Below, in pieces: positions 15,253 to 62,634 of a stretch of DNA of 62,634 nucleotides. The position numbers and the translations under genes were made by a program. Source of the stretch: Stenotrophomonas sp. 278 (GTDB lineage Bacteria; Pseudomonadota; Gammaproteobacteria; Xanthomonadales; Xanthomonadaceae). How positions within the stretch are numbered: position 1 is the first letter of the stretch; each line of letters opens with the position of its first letter. Under the pieces are notes generated by a model. That model was not told where the DNA came from. It did not search any database and was given only the letters and a program-made list of their open reading frames with translations. The DNA lies in assembly GCF_003935715.1 (NCBI RefSeq), contig NZ_RHPP01000008.1:1-62634 (forward strand). Direction: 5' to 3'.

Positions 15253-15653
15253 GGGGGTGCATTGGTTTCGACGGGGGTTGTGAAGTTACCTGGTGCATGC
15301 CGAGGGGGCAGCTTTCCTCGTAAATCCAGCGGCAAAACTCTAGTTGCCAACGATAGCGACTACGCTCCGAACTTCGCTGTTGCTGCCTAAAAAACAGCTG
15401 CAGTTGTAGTTCTTCTGCCGCATAAGGCGGAGCCCCGAACCCACTTGTGTCCATGCTCGTCGGTGTAGGGTCATTATCATGGAATCGGCTGTGGTGGCTG
15501 CCCGTCAGTCACGGCCTAACCTAAAGCGGGCTGATCCTGGGGTGCGTTTCGCACACCGTACTGCTTCAGGACGACACCAAACGGTGAGCTAAGCATGTAG
15601 AACTGGGGATGGAGTGCCTTCGGACGGCGGTTCAATTCCGCCCACCTCCACCA
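15253..15653 (+). ncRNA. ssrA: Transfer-messenger RNA (tmRNA)
   Basis: The 5' end GGGGGTG pairs with CACCTCC just before the 3' ACCA, forming the tRNA-like acceptor stem; the T-arm GGTTCAATTCC is present at 15629-15639. The tag frame at 15346-15390 reads ANDSDYAPNFAVAA then TAA, fitting the A-N-D...A-A pattern of tmRNA tags. It rescues stalled ribosomes with SmpB and marks products for proteolysis. The 3' end is also the prophage integration site. Confidence 0.95.
15619..15653 (+). other. Left attachment site (attL) in the ssrA 3' end
   Basis: The tRNA-like 3' end of ssrA (T-arm and acceptor strand) is a classic target of tyrosine integrases; the integrase gene begins 162 bases beyond it. 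The T-arm and acceptor sequence was not noticed again up to 62634, so the right copy (attR) should lie beyond the window. Exact core limits cannot be fixed from one side. Confidence 0.55.
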
Positions 15654-15735: not shown

Positions 15736-15815
15736 TACCCCCATCTGTTGCAGGCAGTGAGAACGTGGGGGTATATCTTGGGGTATCGCCTCCGCCCGAA
15801 AACCCGATACCCCCA
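15736..15815. promoter_or_regulatory. Four TACCCCCA repeats before the integrase gene
   Basis: TACCCCCA occurs at 15736-15743 and 15808-15815 on the plus strand and, inverted, at 15766-15773 (exact) and 15779-15786 (7 of 8). The last copy includes the A of the integrase ATG. This is suited to arm-type integrase or excisionase binding and autoregulation. Confidence 0.45.
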
Positions 15816-17041
15816 TGCCTCTGACCGACGTCGTCATCCGTCGCGCCAAGCCGTCCGAGAAGCCGCAGAAGCTGGCTGACGGCTGCGGCCTATATCTGCT
15901 GATCACCACCACCGGCACGAAGAGCTGGCGCTGGAAGTACCGCATCGGGGGGAAGGAAAAGCTGTTGACCCTGGGCCTGTACCCCGACGTGACACTGGCA
16001 ATGGCCAGGGACGCGCGCGAGGACGCCCGCCGGCTGCTACGTTCCGGTGTCGACCCGGGGGAACACCGCAAGGTCGCCGCGTCGACGGCGAGCGCCGGCA
16101 TGCCGCCGGACAGCTTCGAGCTGATCGCCAGGGAATGGCTGCGCGGCCGGAAGTGGGTGCCTAACTACGAGAAGAAGGTGCTGGCGTGGTTCGAGAACGA
16201 GGTGTTCCCCGCCGTGGGCGCGCGCCGCGCCGTGGAGTTGAAGGCGTCTGACTTCCTGACGATCGCCAGGAAGATGGAAGCGCGCGAGGCGTTCGAGTCC
16301 GCCCATCGCGTGATGCAGAACTGCGGGCAGGTCATGCGCTATGCCGTGGCCACTGACCGGGCCGAGCGCAACCCTGTCGCCGACCTTCGCGGAGCGCTGG
16401 TGCCTGCCCCGGAGCGGAACCACGCGGCCGTGGTGGACCCGGTGCAGCTGGGCGGCCTGCTGCGCGCCCTGCACTCCTACACCGGTACCGGCGTTGTCTG
16501 CGCCGCGCTGAAGCTGATGCCCCTGGTGTTCGTGCGGCCTATCGAGCTGCGGGCGGCGGAATGGTCGGAGATCGATCTGGACGCTGCGCTCTGGAGCATC
16601 CCCGCGGGCCGCATGAAGATGCGCCAGCCCCACATCGTGCCGCTGGCACGCCAGGCCGTGGCCATCCTGAGCGAGCTGAAGGCGCAGATGCCAGCCGGGT
16701 ACGCCGGCAAGTACGTGTTCCCCGGGCTGCGGTCTGACGACCGCCCGATGTCCGAGGTGGCAGTGCTGGCCGCCCTGCGCAGTATGGGGTTCGACAAGGA
16801 CACGGTGACCGGGCACGGCTTTCGCGCCACCGCGCGCACGTTGCTGGACGAGGTGCTGGGCTTCCGGCCGGACATCATCGAGCACCAGCTGGCGCACGCG
16901 GTGAAGGATCCGAACGGCCGCGCGTACAACCGCACGACCCACCTGCCCGACCGTGTGCACATGATGCAAACCTGGGCCGACTACCTCGAGGGGCTGCGCA
17001 CGGGCAACGTAGTGCAGCTGCGGCCCGGTCAGGCCGCCTGA
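15815..17041 (+). CDS. Tyrosine-type site-specific integrase
   Basis: 408 residues. N-terminal arm-binding domain of the DUF4102 type (LTDVVIRRAKPSEKPQKLADGCGLYL), a SAM-like core-binding domain, and a catalytic domain with Arg241 (VRPIELRAAEW), His334-x-x-Arg337 (HGFR), His361 and nucleophile Tyr371 (AYNRTTHL). P4/CP4-57 class, which commonly uses tRNA or ssrA targets. It reads inward from the attachment site. No excisionase gene was recognised next to it. Confidence 0.95.
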   Translation: MPLTDVVIRRAKPSEKPQKLADGCGLYLLITTTGTKSWRWKYRIGGKEKLLTLGLYPDVTLAMARDAREDARRLLRSGVDPGEHRKVAASTASAGMPPDSFELIAREWLRGRKWVPNYEKKVLAWFENEVFPAVGARRAVELKASDFLTIARKMEAREAFESAHRVMQNCGQVMRYAVATDRAERNPVADLRGALVPAPERNHAAVVDPVQLGGLLRALHSYTGTGVVCAALKLMPLVFVRPIELRAAEWSEIDLDAALWSIPAGRMKMRQPHIVPLARQAVAILSELKAQMPAGYAGKYVFPGLRSDDRPMSEVAVLAALRSMGFDKDTVTGHGFRATARTLLDEVLGFRPDIIEHQLAHAVKDPNGRAYNRTTHLPDRVHMMQTWADYLEGLRTGNVVQLRPGQAA

Positions 17042-17308: not shown

Positions 17309-17611
17309 TTATCGCTTCGCGTGGTAACGGCGTTCCTTGATGCCCTGCAGGTAGCGATCGACCTCCGCCCGCAGCCGGTCCTGATGCCGCTCCGCCCACA
17401 GTTCAGCGCCGGCCTTGCCCTTCTCGTATCCGCTGCAAAGCTGCTGCTTTCGCAGCTTCTGGTCCCGTTGGTTATTCAGGCTGATCCACCAGGTGTGGTC
17501 GTCCACTCGCTGGTACAGGCGTGCGACCTCGACAGAATCGAGTAGCAGCTGATTCGGACGGTCGTGGGGGGCACCGCCAATGGCGTGCCAGCGGAAGTCG
17601 GGCGGAAGCAT
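17309..17611 (-). CDS. Hypothetical phage protein, 100 residues
   Basis: From the ATG at 17611 the product reads MLPPDFRWHAIGGAPHDRPNQ, then LLLDSVEVARLYQRVDDHTWWISLN and a charged helical tail (GAELWAERHQDRLRAEVDRYLQGIKERRYHAKR). The pattern of a short Trp-rich core plus basic helix recalls small phage proteins of unknown role; no family is claimed. The frame extends to 17905 but upstream composition is poor. Codon bias supports the shorter form. Confidence 0.55.
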   Translation of the reverse strand: MLPPDFRWHAIGGAPHDRPNQLLLDSVEVARLYQRVDDHTWWISLNNQRDQKLRKQQLCSGYEKGKAGAELWAERHQDRLRAEVDRYLQGIKERRYHAKR

Positions 17612-17965
17612 GGGGCGCAATCCTACGGACGGCCGTCTCAAATCCTGCGAGAGGTCGGGCCGGCCGAAAGCCTGGCCCCGGATGCACCAGCTGCTGAGGG
17701 AACAGCGGCGGATAGCCAGCGCATCCGGTAAAGCGGCCAGGAAGGCAGCGGGGCTGATGCTGCCAGTGGGGCGAGATGCCTCCCCCTCACTGACGCCAAA
17801 TCTGCAATTTGCGTCGTTAAGGCCGCGCGAAATGAGCGCGGGCGTACCCCGTGTCGATAGATCTTCACCTCCGAGTGAGACAAGTACGTATAGTGGAAAC
17901 CTCAACGCTTCTGGCGGCGCAACAAGAGTTGCTACCGCGTTTAGCCCTTTGAGAAGCGTGACCTA
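17612..17965. other. Intergenic stretch without a recognisable gene
   Basis: 354 bases between divergent genes. Frames here give only low-complexity or Cys/Arg-rich translations without a good start. The last 100 bases are less GC-rich and probably hold the promoter of the plus-strand gene at 17966. No repeat or RNA motif was recognised. Confidence 0.5.
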
Positions 17966-18270: not shown

Positions 18271-18299
18271 AGAAAAAGCTCGGCCACGGCCGAGCTTTC
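18271..18299 (-). terminator. Terminator shared by zinc-ribbon and BLUF genes
   Basis: AAAGCTCGGCC pairs with GGCCGAGCTTT, with a T-run on the minus strand (from AAAAA at 18273-18277). It lies five bases past the BLUF stop and probably ends both convergent genes. Confidence 0.75.
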
Positions 18300-18304
18300 G
18301 TCGC

Positions 18305-18733
18305 CTAGTTGATGTACGGGCCAACCACCGAGCGCATTCGATCAATCCCCGTATGCGAGATGCCTTCTATCAGCCGAACGCGGCGTTGAGCCAATCCGCG
18401 CCAATCACTGCGAACTGCGATGCGCAGCTCAGGCTCGTCCACAGGGATCCAGCGCATCGACCGGTATGGAAAGCGGCGCTGGCCGCCCCGGCTTCGTCCG
18501 AGTTCAACAATCTCAGTATGGCTGCGAGCATTGAGAATGCGTGAGTAGGTCAAAGCAAGACCGTCCTCCGGCCCCTCGATGTATTGCAGGAAGTGAATGC
18601 CGTCCGTGAGAAGAATGCCTGTCACACCCGCAAGGTGGTTGTGCTCAGCTGCGTCTTGGGTCAAATCATCGATCTGGTCAATAGTCAGCCCAGAGATCGC
18701 CTGGCTGAAATAAACGAGAGCGTGTAGCGTCAT
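18305..18733 (-). CDS. BLUF-domain blue-light sensor protein
   Basis: 142 residues, a short BLUF protein with the domain at residues 1-100 and a 40-residue tail. The photochemical residues occur at canonical positions: Tyr8 (LVYFSQA), Asn32 (EHNHLAGVTGILL) and Gln50 (FLQYIEG); the rest of the signature (YSRILNARSHTEIVEL, RRFPYRSMRW) also fits. BLUF domains bind FAD and change hydrogen bonding around the Gln in blue light, signalling to partner proteins. No fused EAL or cyclase output, so it would act through a partner. The ATG at 18733 is where homology starts. Divergent from the SRAP gene. Confidence 0.88.
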   Translation of the reverse strand: MTLHALVYFSQAISGLTIDQIDDLTQDAAEHNHLAGVTGILLTDGIHFLQYIEGPEDGLALTYSRILNARSHTEIVELGRSRGGQRRFPYRSMRWIPVDEPELRIAVRSDWRGLAQRRVRLIEGISHTGIDRMRSVVGPYIN

Positions 18734-18746
18734 GCCCTGCCCTCCA

Positions 18747-18823
18747 GTGTGAATCGCCCCCTGCAATTCACACCGTAACAGCTGCCTCACTACCCTTGGT
18801 GTGAAATCTGTCGCTATGTGAAT
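18747..18823. promoter_or_regulatory. Four GTGTGAAT-like half-sites between BLUF and SRAP genes
   Basis: A perfect inverted pair GTGTGAAT (18747-18754) and ATTCACAC (18766-18773) is followed by GTGTGAAA (18799-18806) and ATGTGAAT (18816-18823). All lie in the 112-base divergent promoter region. The spacing does not fit a CRP/Clp site, so a different regulator is implied. Confidence 0.5.
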
Positions 18824-18845: not shown

Positions 18846-19511
18846 ATGTGCGGCCGCTTCGTCCAAACGCCGATCAAGGCAAAAGGCAGCTTCGCCTTCC
18901 CCGAGCTGGTGGGTGACCTGCTGGCCATGCCGTCCAGCTACAACCTGGCCCCGACGCAGCGCGCCTCGGTGCTGCTGGATCGGGGTACCGGCCTGCAGCT
19001 GACGCGGCTCTCTTGGGGCCTGCTGCCCTTCTGGGCCAAGGCGAAGAGCCTGCAAGGTTCCACGATTAACGCCCGGATCGAGACAGTGGCCACGAAGCCG
19101 GCGTTCCGCTCGGCGTTCAAGAAGCACAGATGCCTGATCCCCATGGCCGGCTACTACGAGTGGTCGGTGAGCCCGGAGGACGGGAAGAAGGACCCGTGGT
19201 TCATCCACGCGGCAGAACCGCTGTGGGCGGCCGGTCTATGGGAGGACCGGAGCCCGCTGCTGGACGATGAGAACCTGGGCACCTTCACGATCATCACCGG
19301 TGACAGCAGTGGCGTGTCGGCCGATATCCACGACCGGATGCCGGTGTGGCTGGGTCTGGACCAGGTGGAAGAGTGGATCACCGCGGAGCCGGACGCGGCC
19401 ATGGCGATGCTGCTGGCATCGGAGCCGCCCGCCATGGAGGCCTACCGCGTCAGCCGCGCGGTGAACACGCCCCGGAACAACACCGAGGGCCTGCTGCAGC
19501 AGGTCGCATAA
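18846..19511 (+). CDS. SRAP/HMCES-type abasic-site protein (YedK-like)
   Basis: 221 residues. Catalytic Cys2 of MCGRF, Asn75 and Arg77 (TINARIET), Glu105 (YYEW) and the His162 motif (IHDRMPV) all match the SRAP family, which forms a covalent link to abasic sites in single-stranded DNA and shields them from strand breaks. Full length. The start is fixed because Cys must be residue 2 after Met removal. In a prophage it could protect single-stranded replication intermediates. Upstream of the acyltransferase gene on the same strand, 59 bases away. Confidence 0.92.
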   Translation: MCGRFVQTPIKAKGSFAFPELVGDLLAMPSSYNLAPTQRASVLLDRGTGLQLTRLSWGLLPFWAKAKSLQGSTINARIETVATKPAFRSAFKKHRCLIPMAGYYEWSVSPEDGKKDPWFIHAAEPLWAAGLWEDRSPLLDDENLGTFTIITGDSSGVSADIHDRMPVWLGLDQVEEWITAEPDAAMAMLLASEPPAMEAYRVSRAVNTPRNNTEGLLQQVA

Positions 19512-19570: not shown

Positions 19571-20656
19571 ATGCTCGGCAGCTTCCGCTTTTTCCTGGCC
19601 ATCTGCGTGGTCCTCTTCCACCTGACTGCGCAGATCCCGAATCTCGGGCAGTTCGCCGTCGAGTGCTTCTACGTCATCAGCGGCTACCTGGTGACCATGA
19701 TCCTCACGAAGACCTACAAGTTTGAGTTCAAATCGTTCGCGCTCAACCGGTTCCTTCGGCTCTACCCGTCGTACTACGCCCTTGCGCTTCTGACCCTGGC
19801 CATGTGGTTCATCCTGCCGAGGATGGATGAATTCCACGCATGCTGGGTATGGGCGGGCCGGGCAACGGACGTGATCGGAAACCTACTGATCTGGCCCTGG
19901 ACCTTCTTCCCAGACCAGCCCGGCAACTACAAATTCAGGTTGATCCCTTCCACTTGGTCGATTGCAGTGGAGATCTGCTGCTACGCGCTGCTCTGGGCGT
20001 TCGCCGCCAGAAGCTGGAAGTGGACCGTCGCCACGCTCGTTGCTTCAGCCTCGTACCACGCATACAGCCTGTACAGCGGCATGGATCCGTCGACTCGCTA
20101 CTCGCCGGTATCAGCCGCGATGCTCGCCTTCGCAACCGGCTCCCTGGCCTACCGCGCCAGTTCGTTCGTTGTGCGGCACAGGCCGGCTTGGATGGGTGCG
20201 ACGGCTGCCCAGCCGTTCCTGCTCCTGCTGGCCGTTGGCGCGTTCCTCGCAGTCTGGAAGGCAAGCACCTATGACGGCACGGCCACTTCAAACCCCTTCT
20301 ACTACGGTGTAATCATCGTCGCGGCAGCTGCCGCTCTCATGTTCCACGGTATCCGCGCCACCGGGGTTCTCGGATGGGTGGACCGCTGGCTCGGTGACTT
20401 GTCCTACCCGGTGTTCTTGATTCACTACCCGGCCGGCTATCTCGTCTGGCTGGCTTTGGGGCAGCCAGAGGCCATGCGCAGCTGGTCCATCGCCCTGTGG
20501 GCCATACCCGTATCGGTCGCCATCAGCGCAATCACGATCCTTGCAGTGGATATACCGCTGCGAAGGACCAGAGACAGGATCCGGGCGGGCGCTCCAGGCG
20601 TCTCTCCGATTCCTGGATCGCCCATTGCGCCTTCAGCGGTTGCTGATAGCCGCTAG
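19571..20656 (+). CDS. Acyltransferase family 3 membrane protein (OafA-like)
   Basis: 361 residues with about ten hydrophobic segments. Hallmarks of the family: GSFRFFLAICVVLFHLT, with the catalytic His in the first membrane helix; FYVISGYLVTMIL; FALNRFLRLYPSYYALALL; and the late VDRWLGDLSYPVFLIHYP. Such enzymes transfer acetyl or other acyl groups to extracytoplasmic sugars; in prophages they often modify O-antigen and block superinfection. Starts at ATG 19571. Lies with SRAP in the cargo block. Confidence 0.88.
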   Translation: MLGSFRFFLAICVVLFHLTAQIPNLGQFAVECFYVISGYLVTMILTKTYKFEFKSFALNRFLRLYPSYYALALLTLAMWFILPRMDEFHACWVWAGRATDVIGNLLIWPWTFFPDQPGNYKFRLIPSTWSIAVEICCYALLWAFAARSWKWTVATLVASASYHAYSLYSGMDPSTRYSPVSAAMLAFATGSLAYRASSFVVRHRPAWMGATAAQPFLLLLAVGAFLAVWKASTYDGTATSNPFYYGVIIVAAAAALMFHGIRATGVLGWVDRWLGDLSYPVFLIHYPAGYLVWLALGQPEAMRSWSIALWAIPVSVAISAITILAVDIPLRRTRDRIRAGAPGVSPIPGSPIAPSAVADSR

Positions 20657-51943: not shown

Positions 51944-52387
51944 TCATACCCCGCCCCGCTCCGCTGCAGCGTCAGCGTGCTGGCCGACCTGCGCGATCGC
52001 GGCCATCACTGAAGCGCAGGCGCGGCCTATCTCGTCAGCTTCATTCGGGGTGACCTTGCCGTCTGCGATGGCATCGGCCACCAGCTGCGACAGGTCGCCC
52101 TTGGCGTGCGCAGCCGTCAGCAGCGCGCTGATCATGGAACCAGACTTCGGGGCCTCGACGCGGTCCAGCACGAAGCCGTGCGTGGCGGCCAGGGCGTGCA
52201 GGATCCGGAAGTCGCCGGTCCGAGCCATCAACGTGTCGGCTTCCTGCAGGCTGAGCAGGTTGCGGTCGGTGTTCGGGTTGACCTTGCCCCGCAGCGTGGC
52301 GGCGGACATACCCATCCTGGGCGCTAGGGCTTCGCTGCCACCACGGTATTCGTGGACGGTGTCGTAGGCGGCGTCGGTGACATTCAT
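51944..52387 (-). CDS. Phage regulatory protein CII
   Basis: 147 residues. MNVTDAAYDTVHEYRGGSEALAPRMGMSAATLRGKVNPNTDRNLLSLQEADTLM is the start of the phage_CII (PF06892) family; the C-terminal helix (ADGKVTPNEADEIGRACASVMAAI) also fits. It activates or represses lysogeny genes. Located downstream of cro, as in lambda, with a hairpin between them. Confidence 0.85.
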   Translation of the reverse strand: MNVTDAAYDTVHEYRGGSEALAPRMGMSAATLRGKVNPNTDRNLLSLQEADTLMARTGDFRILHALAATHGFVLDRVEAPKSGSMISALLTAAHAKGDLSQLVADAIADGKVTPNEADEIGRACASVMAAIAQVGQHADAAAERGGV

Positions 52388-52774: not shown

Positions 52775-52804
52775 AGTAAACCACCGTTTACCTTATGACG
52801 TCAA
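52775..52804 (-). promoter_or_regulatory. Leftward early promoter (PR-like) driving cro
   Basis: TTGACG (52804-52799), 18 bases, TTTACT (52780-52775) on the minus strand. The -35 overlaps one operator and the -10 another. Geometry equals that of the rightward promoter at 54184. Confidence 0.75.
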
Positions 52805-52839
52805 CCACTATTTACCGCTTGCCGTCAACAATGGTTGAC
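52776..52839. promoter_or_regulatory. Three 16-bp operators, 24 bp apart (OR-like)
   Basis: GTAAACCACCGTTTAC (52776-52791), GTCAACCACTATTTAC (52800-52815) and GTCAACAATGGTTGAC (52824-52839): consensus GTMAAC-N4-RTTKAC. First and third are perfect palindromes. Start-to-start spacing is 24 bp in both steps. The third touches the start of the repressor gene. Confidence 0.85.
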
Positions 52840-53319
52840 ATGAGCATTGGCGAACGACTGAGAGAGCTGCGGCTGAACAAGGGCCTCACCCTTGAGCAGG
52901 CTGGTGCCATTGCTGAAACCACGAAGCAGTCGATGTCCCAGATTGAGAAAGGGGTCACGAAAGAGCCTGGGGCTCTTCCGGTCTTCCGCTGGGCTCGCCA
53001 TTACGGCGTCAGCGCCGAGTGGCTGATCACGGGAAAAGGATCGCGTGACGACTCGTCTCAACCTGCGCGACCCGACTTCGACAAGATTGCAGCCGCGGTA
53101 AATGTGCTCACGCACTACCTGGAGTTGGTGAACGATCCACCGGAATGGGTGCACGATCCGATCCTCCTCGAGACCGCGTACATGGTCGTGGAAGAGTTCG
53201 GTGGGTCAGCAGAGCCTGACAATGTCCTCGACCTGACCAAGCTACTTTCTAAGCGCATCAGGGGGGCGAAGGGTGAGCAACAAGAAGTTCGAAGAGTTGG
53301 CAAAGCGGCTGGCGGCTAG
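52840..53319 (+). CDS. CI-type repressor, without S24 peptidase domain
   Basis: 159 residues from ATG 52840 (ATG 52831 lies inside an operator). N-terminal XRE-type HTH (IGERLRELRLNKGLTLEQAGAIAETTKQSMSQIEKG), then a helical region; it lacks the LexA-like peptidase part with Ser-Lys, so RecA-driven self-cleavage is not expected. Faces Cro across three operators. First gene of an operon with two more genes ending at 54120. Confidence 0.85.
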   Translation: MSIGERLRELRLNKGLTLEQAGAIAETTKQSMSQIEKGVTKEPGALPVFRWARHYGVSAEWLITGKGSRDDSSQPARPDFDKIAAAVNVLTHYLELVNDPPEWVHDPILLETAYMVVEEFGGSAEPDNVLDLTKLLSKRIRGAKGEQQEVRRVGKAAGG

Positions 53320-61420: not shown

Positions 61421-61561
61421 ATGAGCGTCCACCCAAATGACCGCATCTACGCCCTCGAGGTCGCCGTCCGGCTTGCCCAAGACCACCACGTCGAGGTGAA
61501 GGTTCTGCTGGACCTGCGGGAGCTTCTGGACCAGGCACGCCGGGAGCAGCGTAATGGCTGA
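61421..61561 (+). CDS. Small 46-residue early phage protein
   Basis: MSVHPNDRIYALEVAVRLAQDHHVEVKVLLDLRELLDQARREQRNG. Helical. A GGAG (61406-61409) lies 11 bases before the ATG. Overlaps the methyltransferase start by 8 bases. Role unknown. Confidence 0.55.
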   Translation: MSVHPNDRIYALEVAVRLAQDHHVEVKVLLDLRELLDQARREQRNG

Positions 61562-62634
61562 CGGTTCCCGCTCCCCTGAGATTCGCATCACGCCGAAGTC
61601 CCGCGTCCGGTCCGCCATCATCGGGGACCTGTTCTGCGGTGCCGGCGGGCTGTCCAACGGTGCGAAGCGCGCCATGCGTGAGCTAGGCCGGCCCGCGCGC
61701 CTGGTGGCCGTGAACCACTGGCCCGTCGCCATCGAGACGAACCGCCGGAACCATCCGGAAGACGCCGACCGTATCCACTGCGCCGATCTGGAATCCGCCC
61801 TGCCCCTGTCCCTGGTACCGGAAGGCTGGCTCGACCTGCTGATCGCAGCGCCGTCCTGCGTGTTCCACAGCCGTGCGCGCGGCGGGCGGCCCGTGCACGA
61901 CCAGCAGCGAATGGACCCATGGCACGTGGTGCGCTGGTGTTCGGAACTTCGCGTGAAGCGCATCCTTGTCGAGAACGTGCCCGAGTTTATGGACTGGGGT
62001 CCGTGCAGCCTGACCACCGGGCGGCCGATCAAGTCCCGCCGCGGCGAGTACTTCCGCGCCTGGGTGCAGGCGCTGGAGGCCATTGGCTTCAAGGTCGACT
62101 GGAAGGTGCTGAACTGCGCCGATTACGGCGATCCGACCACCCGCCGCCGCTTCTTCCTGATCGGCCGCAGTGACGGCAAGCCGCTGACCTGGCCAGAGGC
62201 CACCCACGACCGCGCCGGCAGCACCGACCTGCTGGGAACCCGGCAGCGCTGGCGCGGTGCCCGCGAGGTCATCGACTGGACCATGACCGGCAAGAGCATC
62301 TTCCGCCGGAAGAAGCCGCTGCGCCCGAACACGCTGAAGCGGATCAAGGCCGGCGCTGTGAAGTACAACTGGCCGAAGCCCTACCAGGAAGCGGTGCAGG
62401 CGCTGCTGGACGGCACTGAACCACGATTGGTGTTCTCCCGGGCCGAGGCAATCCAGCTGGGCCTGATCGCGGTGGAGCCGATGCTGGTCACCCTGCGCGG
62501 CACCAGCGAGCAGCACCTGCATGCGAGCGCCGCGTCGATCGACCAGCCTCTGCCTACGCTGACTGCCGGCGGCGGGCACGTCGGCTTGGTGCTGGCGACC
62601 GGCAGCGGCGGTGCCGCGCGGGACGTCGAGCAGC
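61554..62634 (+). CDS. Cytosine-C5 DNA methyltransferase, cut by window end
   Basis: 360 codons visible, open at the right edge. Motif I DLFCGAGGL at 25-33; motif IV AAPSCVFHS with catalytic Cys102 (Pro-Ser-Cys instead of the usual Pro-Pro-Cys/Pro-Cys context); motif VI VENVPEF; motif VIII DYGDPTTRRRFFLIG; then a variable recognition region and LPTLTAGGGHVGLV (motif IX/X-like). Likely protects phage DNA from restriction; no partner nuclease is visible. Start ATG 61554 overlaps the previous gene. Confidence 0.9.
   Translation, partial: MADGSRSPEIRITPKSRVRSAIIGDLFCGAGGLSNGAKRAMRELGRPARLVAVNHWPVAIETNRRNHPEDADRIHCADLESALPLSLVPEGWLDLLIAAPSCVFHSRARGGRPVHDQQRMDPWHVVRWCSELRVKRILVENVPEFMDWGPCSLTTGRPIKSRRGEYFRAWVQALEAIGFKVDWKVLNCADYGDPTTRRRFFLIGRSDGKPLTWPEATHDRAGSTDLLGTRQRWRGAREVIDWTMTGKSIFRRKKPLRPNTLKRIKAGAVKYNWPKPYQEAVQALLDGTEPRLVFSRAEAIQLGLIAVEPMLVTLRGTSEQHLHASAASIDQPLPTLTAGGGHVGLVLATGSGGAARDVEQ

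Follow-up and report, generated by a model that had tools for sequence, protein, structure and literature searches.

The window, by which we mean the whole 62,634-nucleotide stretch of Stenotrophomonas DNA analyzed here, contains a prophage that begins at the 3' end of the tmRNA gene and carries a gene for a short BLUF photoreceptor among its cargo (Table 1). A sequence-only reading had placed this gene in a cargo block just inside the integrase, and our annotation agrees: the integrase lies beside the tmRNA gene, and the BLUF gene precedes the tail genes. The block consists, in order, of two ORFs without assigned function, a zinc-ribbon gene, the BLUF gene, an SRAP gene, an acyltransferase gene and one further ORF. 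Genes for tail proteins, a spanin, an endolysin, RuvC, NinB, DnaB, replication, CII, CI, RecT and RecE follow. An IMG/VR viral contig of 46,819 bases, a length equal to 62,634 minus 15,815, matches at 100% across the 14 genes of the part compared. The two nearest copies of the window BLUF are both found in Stenotrophomonas sp. PS02289 (G077).

The 3' end of the tmRNA gene also occurs at 14 other places examined, where the sequence after it looks similar by eye. It was considered as a repeated attachment site and rejected: the 4.67-Mb assembly has a single exact copy, a result that probably reflects a contig that terminates before the prophage does. The far prophage end lies outside the window, since the contig stops within a prophage DNA methyltransferase gene (61554-62634).

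In position and orientation the BLUF gene resembles a moron, lying between phage modules in its own orientation, and a terminator-like hairpin follows it (fold z-score -2.69, equaled by 5 of 200 shuffled sequences). A consensus scan for promoters and terminators, however, gave no site for the window BLUF gene, and the hairpin is absent from its list. Upstream of the gene, at about 18747-18773, we considered an operator-like inverted repeat, GTGTGAAT-N11-ATTCACAC; it is not kept in the sister genes that encode proteins 91-92% identical to the window BLUF, and the operator reading was therefore dropped.

Table 1. Features of the prophage and its cargo slot in the window
Feature	Position	Strand	Remarks
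tmRNA gene	15253..15653	+	prophage begins at its 3' end
Tyrosine integrase of prophage	15815..17041	+	
Cargo ORF, 101 aa, no assigned function	17309..17614	-	relatives at other BLUF-bearing loci (19 of 70 viral-contig loci)
Small zinc-ribbon gene, 94 aa	17966..18250	+	ORF, family match; convergent with BLUF gene
GC-rich inverted repeat between zinc-ribbon and BLUF genes, terminator-like	18275..18298		T-rich after it on minus strand (BLUF side)
Short BLUF photoreceptor gene, 142 aa	18305..18733	-	ATG at 18733, stop ending at 18305, intact frame; ORF, Pfam, PDB matches, alignment, AlphaFold2
Ribosome-binding site of BLUF gene	18741..18745	-	GGAGG, 7 nt before ATG
SRAP (YedK/HMCES-like) gene	18846..19511	+	188.9 bits; divergent from BLUF gene
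Acyltransferase (O-antigen acetylase-like) cargo gene	19571..20656	+	
CII-like gene	51944-52387	-	
CI-like repressor of prophage	52795..53319	+	34 kb from BLUF gene

Fold and photochemical residues of the window BLUF

The identification of the product as a 142-residue BLUF protein is borne out by the ORF, Pfam, matches in the PDB and an AlphaFold2 model. PF04940 aligns to residues 3-93 with 68 bits against a cutoff of 25 (E = 7.7e-19; profile positions 1-91 of 92), and the matching PDB chains include BlrP1 (E = 1.3e-10) and Tll0078 (E = 1.5e-8, gapless to residue 69). The model, computed with 59 aligned sequences, has a pLDDT of 87.9 and a pTM of 0.84, with residues 118-125 below 50. Its elements follow the order b-a-b-b-a-b-b, with strands at residues 3-12, 38-43, 47-55, 72-82 and 94-97 and helices at 18-35 and 56-68. 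These five strands and two helices are those of the BLUF fold, and C-terminal helices come after them.

A family profile spans residues 4-141 of Slr1694/PixD (2hfn), and this near-complete coverage assigns the window protein to the short, single-domain BLUF type. PixD/Slr1694 and Tll0078 share its length, the Y8/N32/Q50/M93 numbering and the C-terminal helices, whereas the window protein differs from both in having Arg at position 91 and in its prophage location. PixE is the partner of PixD. With a single Pfam family and only C-terminal helices beyond it in 142 residues, the window protein has no fused output domain, so the earlier conclusion that it needs a partner stands; that partner had been called unknown, and a candidate can now be named in the product of the neighboring zinc-ribbon gene.

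Short BLUFs without an output domain also include BlsA of Acinetobacter baumannii and SnfB of Stenotrophomonas sp. SKA14, the latter meaning that the type was already known in this genus; BlsA, unlike the window protein, has an extra predicted helix (PMC6695109). In our alignment, a C-terminal Trp111 motif is common to prophage and non-prophage BLUFs.

Tyr8, Asn32 and Gln50, which form the flavin hydrogen-bond network, had been described as the full set of key photochemical residues. All three, along with Met93, do fall on the equivalent columns of the alignment of 59 BLUFs, but that account was incomplete, having missed the replacement of a near-invariant Trp by Arg at position 91 (codon CGG, 18461-18463). 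Trp occupies this column in all 58 other aligned BLUFs, and the two sisters with 91-92% identity have TGG at the codon. Departures from Trp elsewhere amount to two His and one Gly among 126 BLUFs, and one Glu and one Pro among 80 viral-contig BLUFs. The window BLUF has thus kept the Met of the Trp/Met pair located before and in strand 5, with the Trp replaced. Published mutants at this position behave differently from one another: BlsA W92A, the equivalent of W91, is insoluble on overexpression and lit-like in motility, whereas Slr1694 W91A is normal and retains photochemistry, so that Trp is no absolute need of a BLUF domain (PMC6695109). In view of Arg91 and these conflicting behaviors, flavin function of the window copy is likely but not safe. 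Codon use of the gene is atypical, with a low log-likelihood score of 12.1 over its 142 codons; the adjoining SRAP gene, which was itself part of the training set, scores 92.7 over 221 codons.

Recurrence of BLUF genes in prophages and their neighbors

BLUF matches are present in 84 of 91 Stenotrophomonas genomes, as many as 10 in a single genome. Of 247 genomes sampled across the family, 10 have a match at E = 1e-25 or better, a threshold that leaves weaker relatives outside Stenotrophomonas uncounted, and all 10 are from this one genus of 54. The BLUF gene had been thought worth seeking in other prophages, and it is found there by three routes. First, a BLUF gene lies within 3.5 kb of 14 of the 35 near-full-length SRAP genes with at least 70% identity to that of the window, loci for which prophage context is established in part. 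These 14 comprise 11 of the 32 stretches L079-L110, the window, G077:C348 and G006; broken SRAP copies are omitted (G005, G077:C312 and others), and those of G005 and G077:C312 each have a BLUF gene beside them. By simple arithmetic, random placement of approximately four BLUFs per genome would put well under one near the 35 SRAP genes. Second, 6 of 15 integrases at least 64% identical to that of the window (one of them split) have a BLUF gene within 7 kb. Most loci of both kinds lack one (21 of 35 and 9 of 15, respectively). Third, a profile scan of IMG/VR returned 70 BLUF loci, the window's own included; within about 4 kb, an integrase or tail gene of the kinds tested is present at 49 and absent from 21, and an SRAP gene is present at 48 and absent from 22. 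Two BLUF genes occur on one IMG/VR contig (L008), and a prophage of G004 has three that differ from one another and share a strand (L067:8178-11071).

Among other mobile elements, tblastn with three queries found no BLUF relative in a phage collection of 50,697 records, and 188 plasmid records contain distant BLUFs, all below 60% identity. Viral BLUF genes are already in print: two rain-water viral scaffolds of 270 and 496 kb, linked to a Flavobacteriaceae MAG and hence to another host group, are reported to carry them (PMC10564846). The bluF region of E. coli has prophage genes beside it, and phage-associated transfer has been suggested (PMC3509220); there the region adjoins a prophage, and BluF has a fused EAL domain where the window BLUF has none. 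Among the matches listed in a literature search that took in few subscription journals, the text consulted did not analyze BLUFs carried by prophages, a zinc ribbon linked to BLUFs or a phage clade blind to light. Against that literature, the window BLUF is of an established type, and the cassette in phages and the blind clade described below are novel forms of it.

The zinc-ribbon protein encoded beside the window BLUF belongs to a family (membership E = 2.8e-22) with invariant residues F9, C35, C38, C61 and C64, of which it is a distant member, sharing at most 30% identity with any protein outside its two sisters. A Pfam search with the window's zinc-ribbon protein gave no family above the cutoff, and the best among the Pfam matches listed for 36 members was to DUF6510, at E = 0.00021. 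Of 184 non-redundant BLUFs, chosen from 277 BLUF places for having distinct DNA and 1.4 kb or more of sequence to either side, 74 have a member encoded within 1.4 kb, and in 73 of these pairs the two genes are on opposite strands. In a genus-wide count among the matches listed (150 zinc-ribbon and 181 BLUF places), 47 of the 150 zinc-ribbon genes lie within 1.5 kb of a listed BLUF, against 0.37 expected, although most seeds of the family alignment came from BLUF loci and neighboring species are not independent. All 47 pairs are on opposite strands, 35 divergent and 12 convergent, and the other 103 listed zinc-ribbon genes are away from any listed BLUF. Another BLUF gene of the genome to which the window belongs (contig C281) also has a member of the family, about 30 bases away.

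At loci anchored on the SRAP or integrase genes, a zinc-ribbon member was found at 6 of 16 with a BLUF gene versus 2 of 41 without (p = 0.0043). Other cargo families are likewise enriched at BLUF loci (c17, p = 0.011; c11, p = 0.0031; c2, p = 0.0011), whereas for SRAP, integrase and tail genes no significant difference separates loci with a BLUF gene from those without. Because c17, c11 and c2 are also BLUF-linked, the zinc-ribbon linkage may reflect a cassette whose genes travel together with no physical partnership between the products. On the strength of gene position, we regard the zinc-ribbon protein as a candidate partner of the BLUF.

Many divergent zinc-ribbon/BLUF promoters share, by eye, an inverted repeat near ATTCAG-N12-CTGAAT, a possible operator, about 100 bases before the BLUF start (L215, L219, L237, L216, L208, L199, L132 and others); no such repeat was seen in the window. 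Families c2 (approximately 166 aa, e.g., L098:6250-6750) and c11 (approximately 204 aa, e.g., L135:4604-5218) co-occur with prophage BLUFs; c2 matches phrog_26768, and c11 presumably resembles an Ntn-hydrolase, a likeness seen by eye.

The window BLUF falls in the same subfamily as the non-prophage BLUFs of the genus. A tree of 91 BLUFs was built after omitting seven distant rows and those nearly identical to others. On it, the label "phage" (given to 21 rows, with the blind rows kept apart) requires 17 changes, and the starred branches force at least 13; since unlabelled rows include loci too short to judge, so that some changes may reflect missing information, and the changes have no direction, these figures show that prophage and non-prophage copies are intermixed rather than giving a number of captures.

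Proposed role and the clade lacking Tyr8 and Gln50

On balance, we think it somewhat probable that the window BLUF is a lysogenic-conversion cargo gene, or moron, whose product touches other proteins and in this way alters short-BLUF signaling of the host, the zinc-ribbon protein being a candidate for the one contacted. Under this proposal, a PixD/BlsA-type BLUF carried between the integrase and tail genes of a prophage at the tmRNA gene would bind flavin, be expressed in the lysogen and contact a regulator directly. BlsA contacts the regulator Fur (PMC5955987, PMC6695109), binding it in the dark and hardly at all in blue light (PMC5955987), and BluF of E. coli acts by contact with the repressor BluR (PMC3509220). 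By analogy with BlsA and Fur, the window BLUF should alter a regulator in the lysogen. Its likeliest target would be the product of the linked zinc-ribbon gene or else the protein with which the short BLUFs of the host itself interact, and the effect would fall on the light and oxidative-stress physiology of the lysogen rather than on the lysis-lysogeny decision. The W91R substitution may affect transmission of the light state, or it may make the protein favor a single state.

A related possibility is that prophage BLUFs act independently of light, as mimics or decoys that keep the partner of host short BLUFs occupied in one unchanging state and so override the host light response. Evidence that bears on it comes from one group of BLUFs. 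Thirteen of 126 distinct BLUFs have Phe at position 8, and the same 13 lack Gln50 (six Ala, five Ser, two Thr); Asn32 is kept in all 126. With columns 8 and 50 masked, the 13 still form one clade (support 95/94). Eight are members of the prophage slot, four with a tail gene in the stretch (G025, G090, G031, G086), two identical to proteins of IMG/VR contigs (G060, G022), one beside an SRAP gene (G033) and one with families c11 and c2 (G035). The remaining five come from a tandem locus (L174, L177-L179) that also encodes a REC protein and chemoreceptor-like proteins and whose prophage status is not established. On IMG/VR contigs, 13 distinct Phe8 proteins have Ala50 or Ser50, 11 of them not identical to any in the genome set; they occupy 15 loci, with SRAP at 13 and an integrase or tail gene nearby at 7.

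Among the eight slot members, dN/dS is 0.07-0.28 (26 of 28 pairs, two having undefined dS), with dS above 1 in many pairs; at the tandem locus it is 0.56-1.25, on few changes. If Tyr8 and Gln50 were lost once, the values for the slot members would place selection after the loss. A light-independent role thus seems to have been selected in these blind proteins, which are probably kept for something besides normal BLUF photochemistry, and prophage carriage does not in itself imply light sensing. Gln mutants of Slr1694 and AppA equivalent to loss of Gln50 are locked in pseudo-lit states, according to PMC6695109. These observations suit a decoy, as does the sharing of the Trp111 motif with non-prophage BLUFs; the window protein, with W91R, would then be a step toward a state of which the Y8F/Q50A,S clade is the end point. 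Set against this, Tyr8 and Gln50 are present in the window protein itself and in 65 of 80 distinct viral-contig BLUFs, a fraction that is no frequency because the scans used patterns favoring one or the other form. The blind proteins also form one clade and so count as one event, five of the 13 belong to the tandem locus with its higher dN/dS, and many of the 26 pairs exceed a dS of 1. We therefore treat the decoy as possible but not likely for the window BLUF.

In the tandem pairs (L174:9680-10997, L177:9325-10660, L178:9632-10922 and L179:8787-10122), Tyr8 and Gln50 are missing from both BLUFs, Trp91 and Met93 are missing as well from one of them, and a small ORF lies between the two genes. 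The REC-like protein and chemoreceptor-like genes then follow in three of the four genomes.

The sequence-only reading had proposed that blue light might feed into the phage decision, with the BLUF coupling light to prophage induction or repression. The gene is prophage-borne, and the SRAP gene adjoins it; blue light is a cause of oxidative damage, and proteins of the SRAP family shield abasic sites in DNA. No link to the decision was found: the gene is 34 kb away from CI and CII, has a ribosome-binding site and a terminator-like hairpin of its own, shares a subfamily with non-prophage BLUFs of the genus and sits in a slot common to other cargo such as the acyltransferase, the 50,697 phage records hold no relative by the three queries, and blind relatives have been retained. 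Light control of lysis and lysogeny is accordingly unsupported, and we consider it very unlikely.

We give as little credence to a recently captured and decaying host gene with no role in the prophage, which could account for a substitution (W91R) unique among the 59 aligned BLUFs, an in-frame TAG in the G039 relative, the broken SRAP gene of G077:C312 and the low codon score, but fits poorly with the intact frame, ribosome-binding site and terminator-like hairpin, with repeated occupation of the same slot, and with dN/dS of 0.22-0.36 in the window's clade (three pairs) and 0.10-0.24 in its sister clade (9 of 10 pairs, one having undefined dS), indicative of purifying selection.

Conversion of the lysogen by a BLUF moron can be extended to a general scheme, which as a whole strikes us as unlikely: temperate Stenotrophomonas phages would repeatedly take up host BLUFs, make some of them light-blind and constitutively set, and, together with an opposite-strand zinc-ribbon partner, use them to override light and oxidative-stress signaling of the host during lysogeny. 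In any case, BLUFs emerge as recurrent prophage cargo across one genus, tied to a zinc-ribbon family that has no Pfam name, and include a seemingly selected prophage-slot lineage without the residues for light sensing. Two questions thereby become testable: which partners single-domain BLUFs communicate with, and whether a phage in lysogeny modifies the sensory state of its host.

A final observation, which also counts in favor of the conversion proposal, concerns genes found near BLUFs. On a tree of 123 BLUFs (of 126, with proteins under 115 aa left out), 36 are near genes for Mn-catalase, DUF892, Fpg-like or DUF72 proteins. At several loci (L047-L055, L170, L185), non-prophage BLUFs cluster with Mn-catalase, DUF892, an Fpg-like glycosylase, DUF72, a response regulator and a PAS-kinase, in what appears to be a stress region containing several BLUFs.
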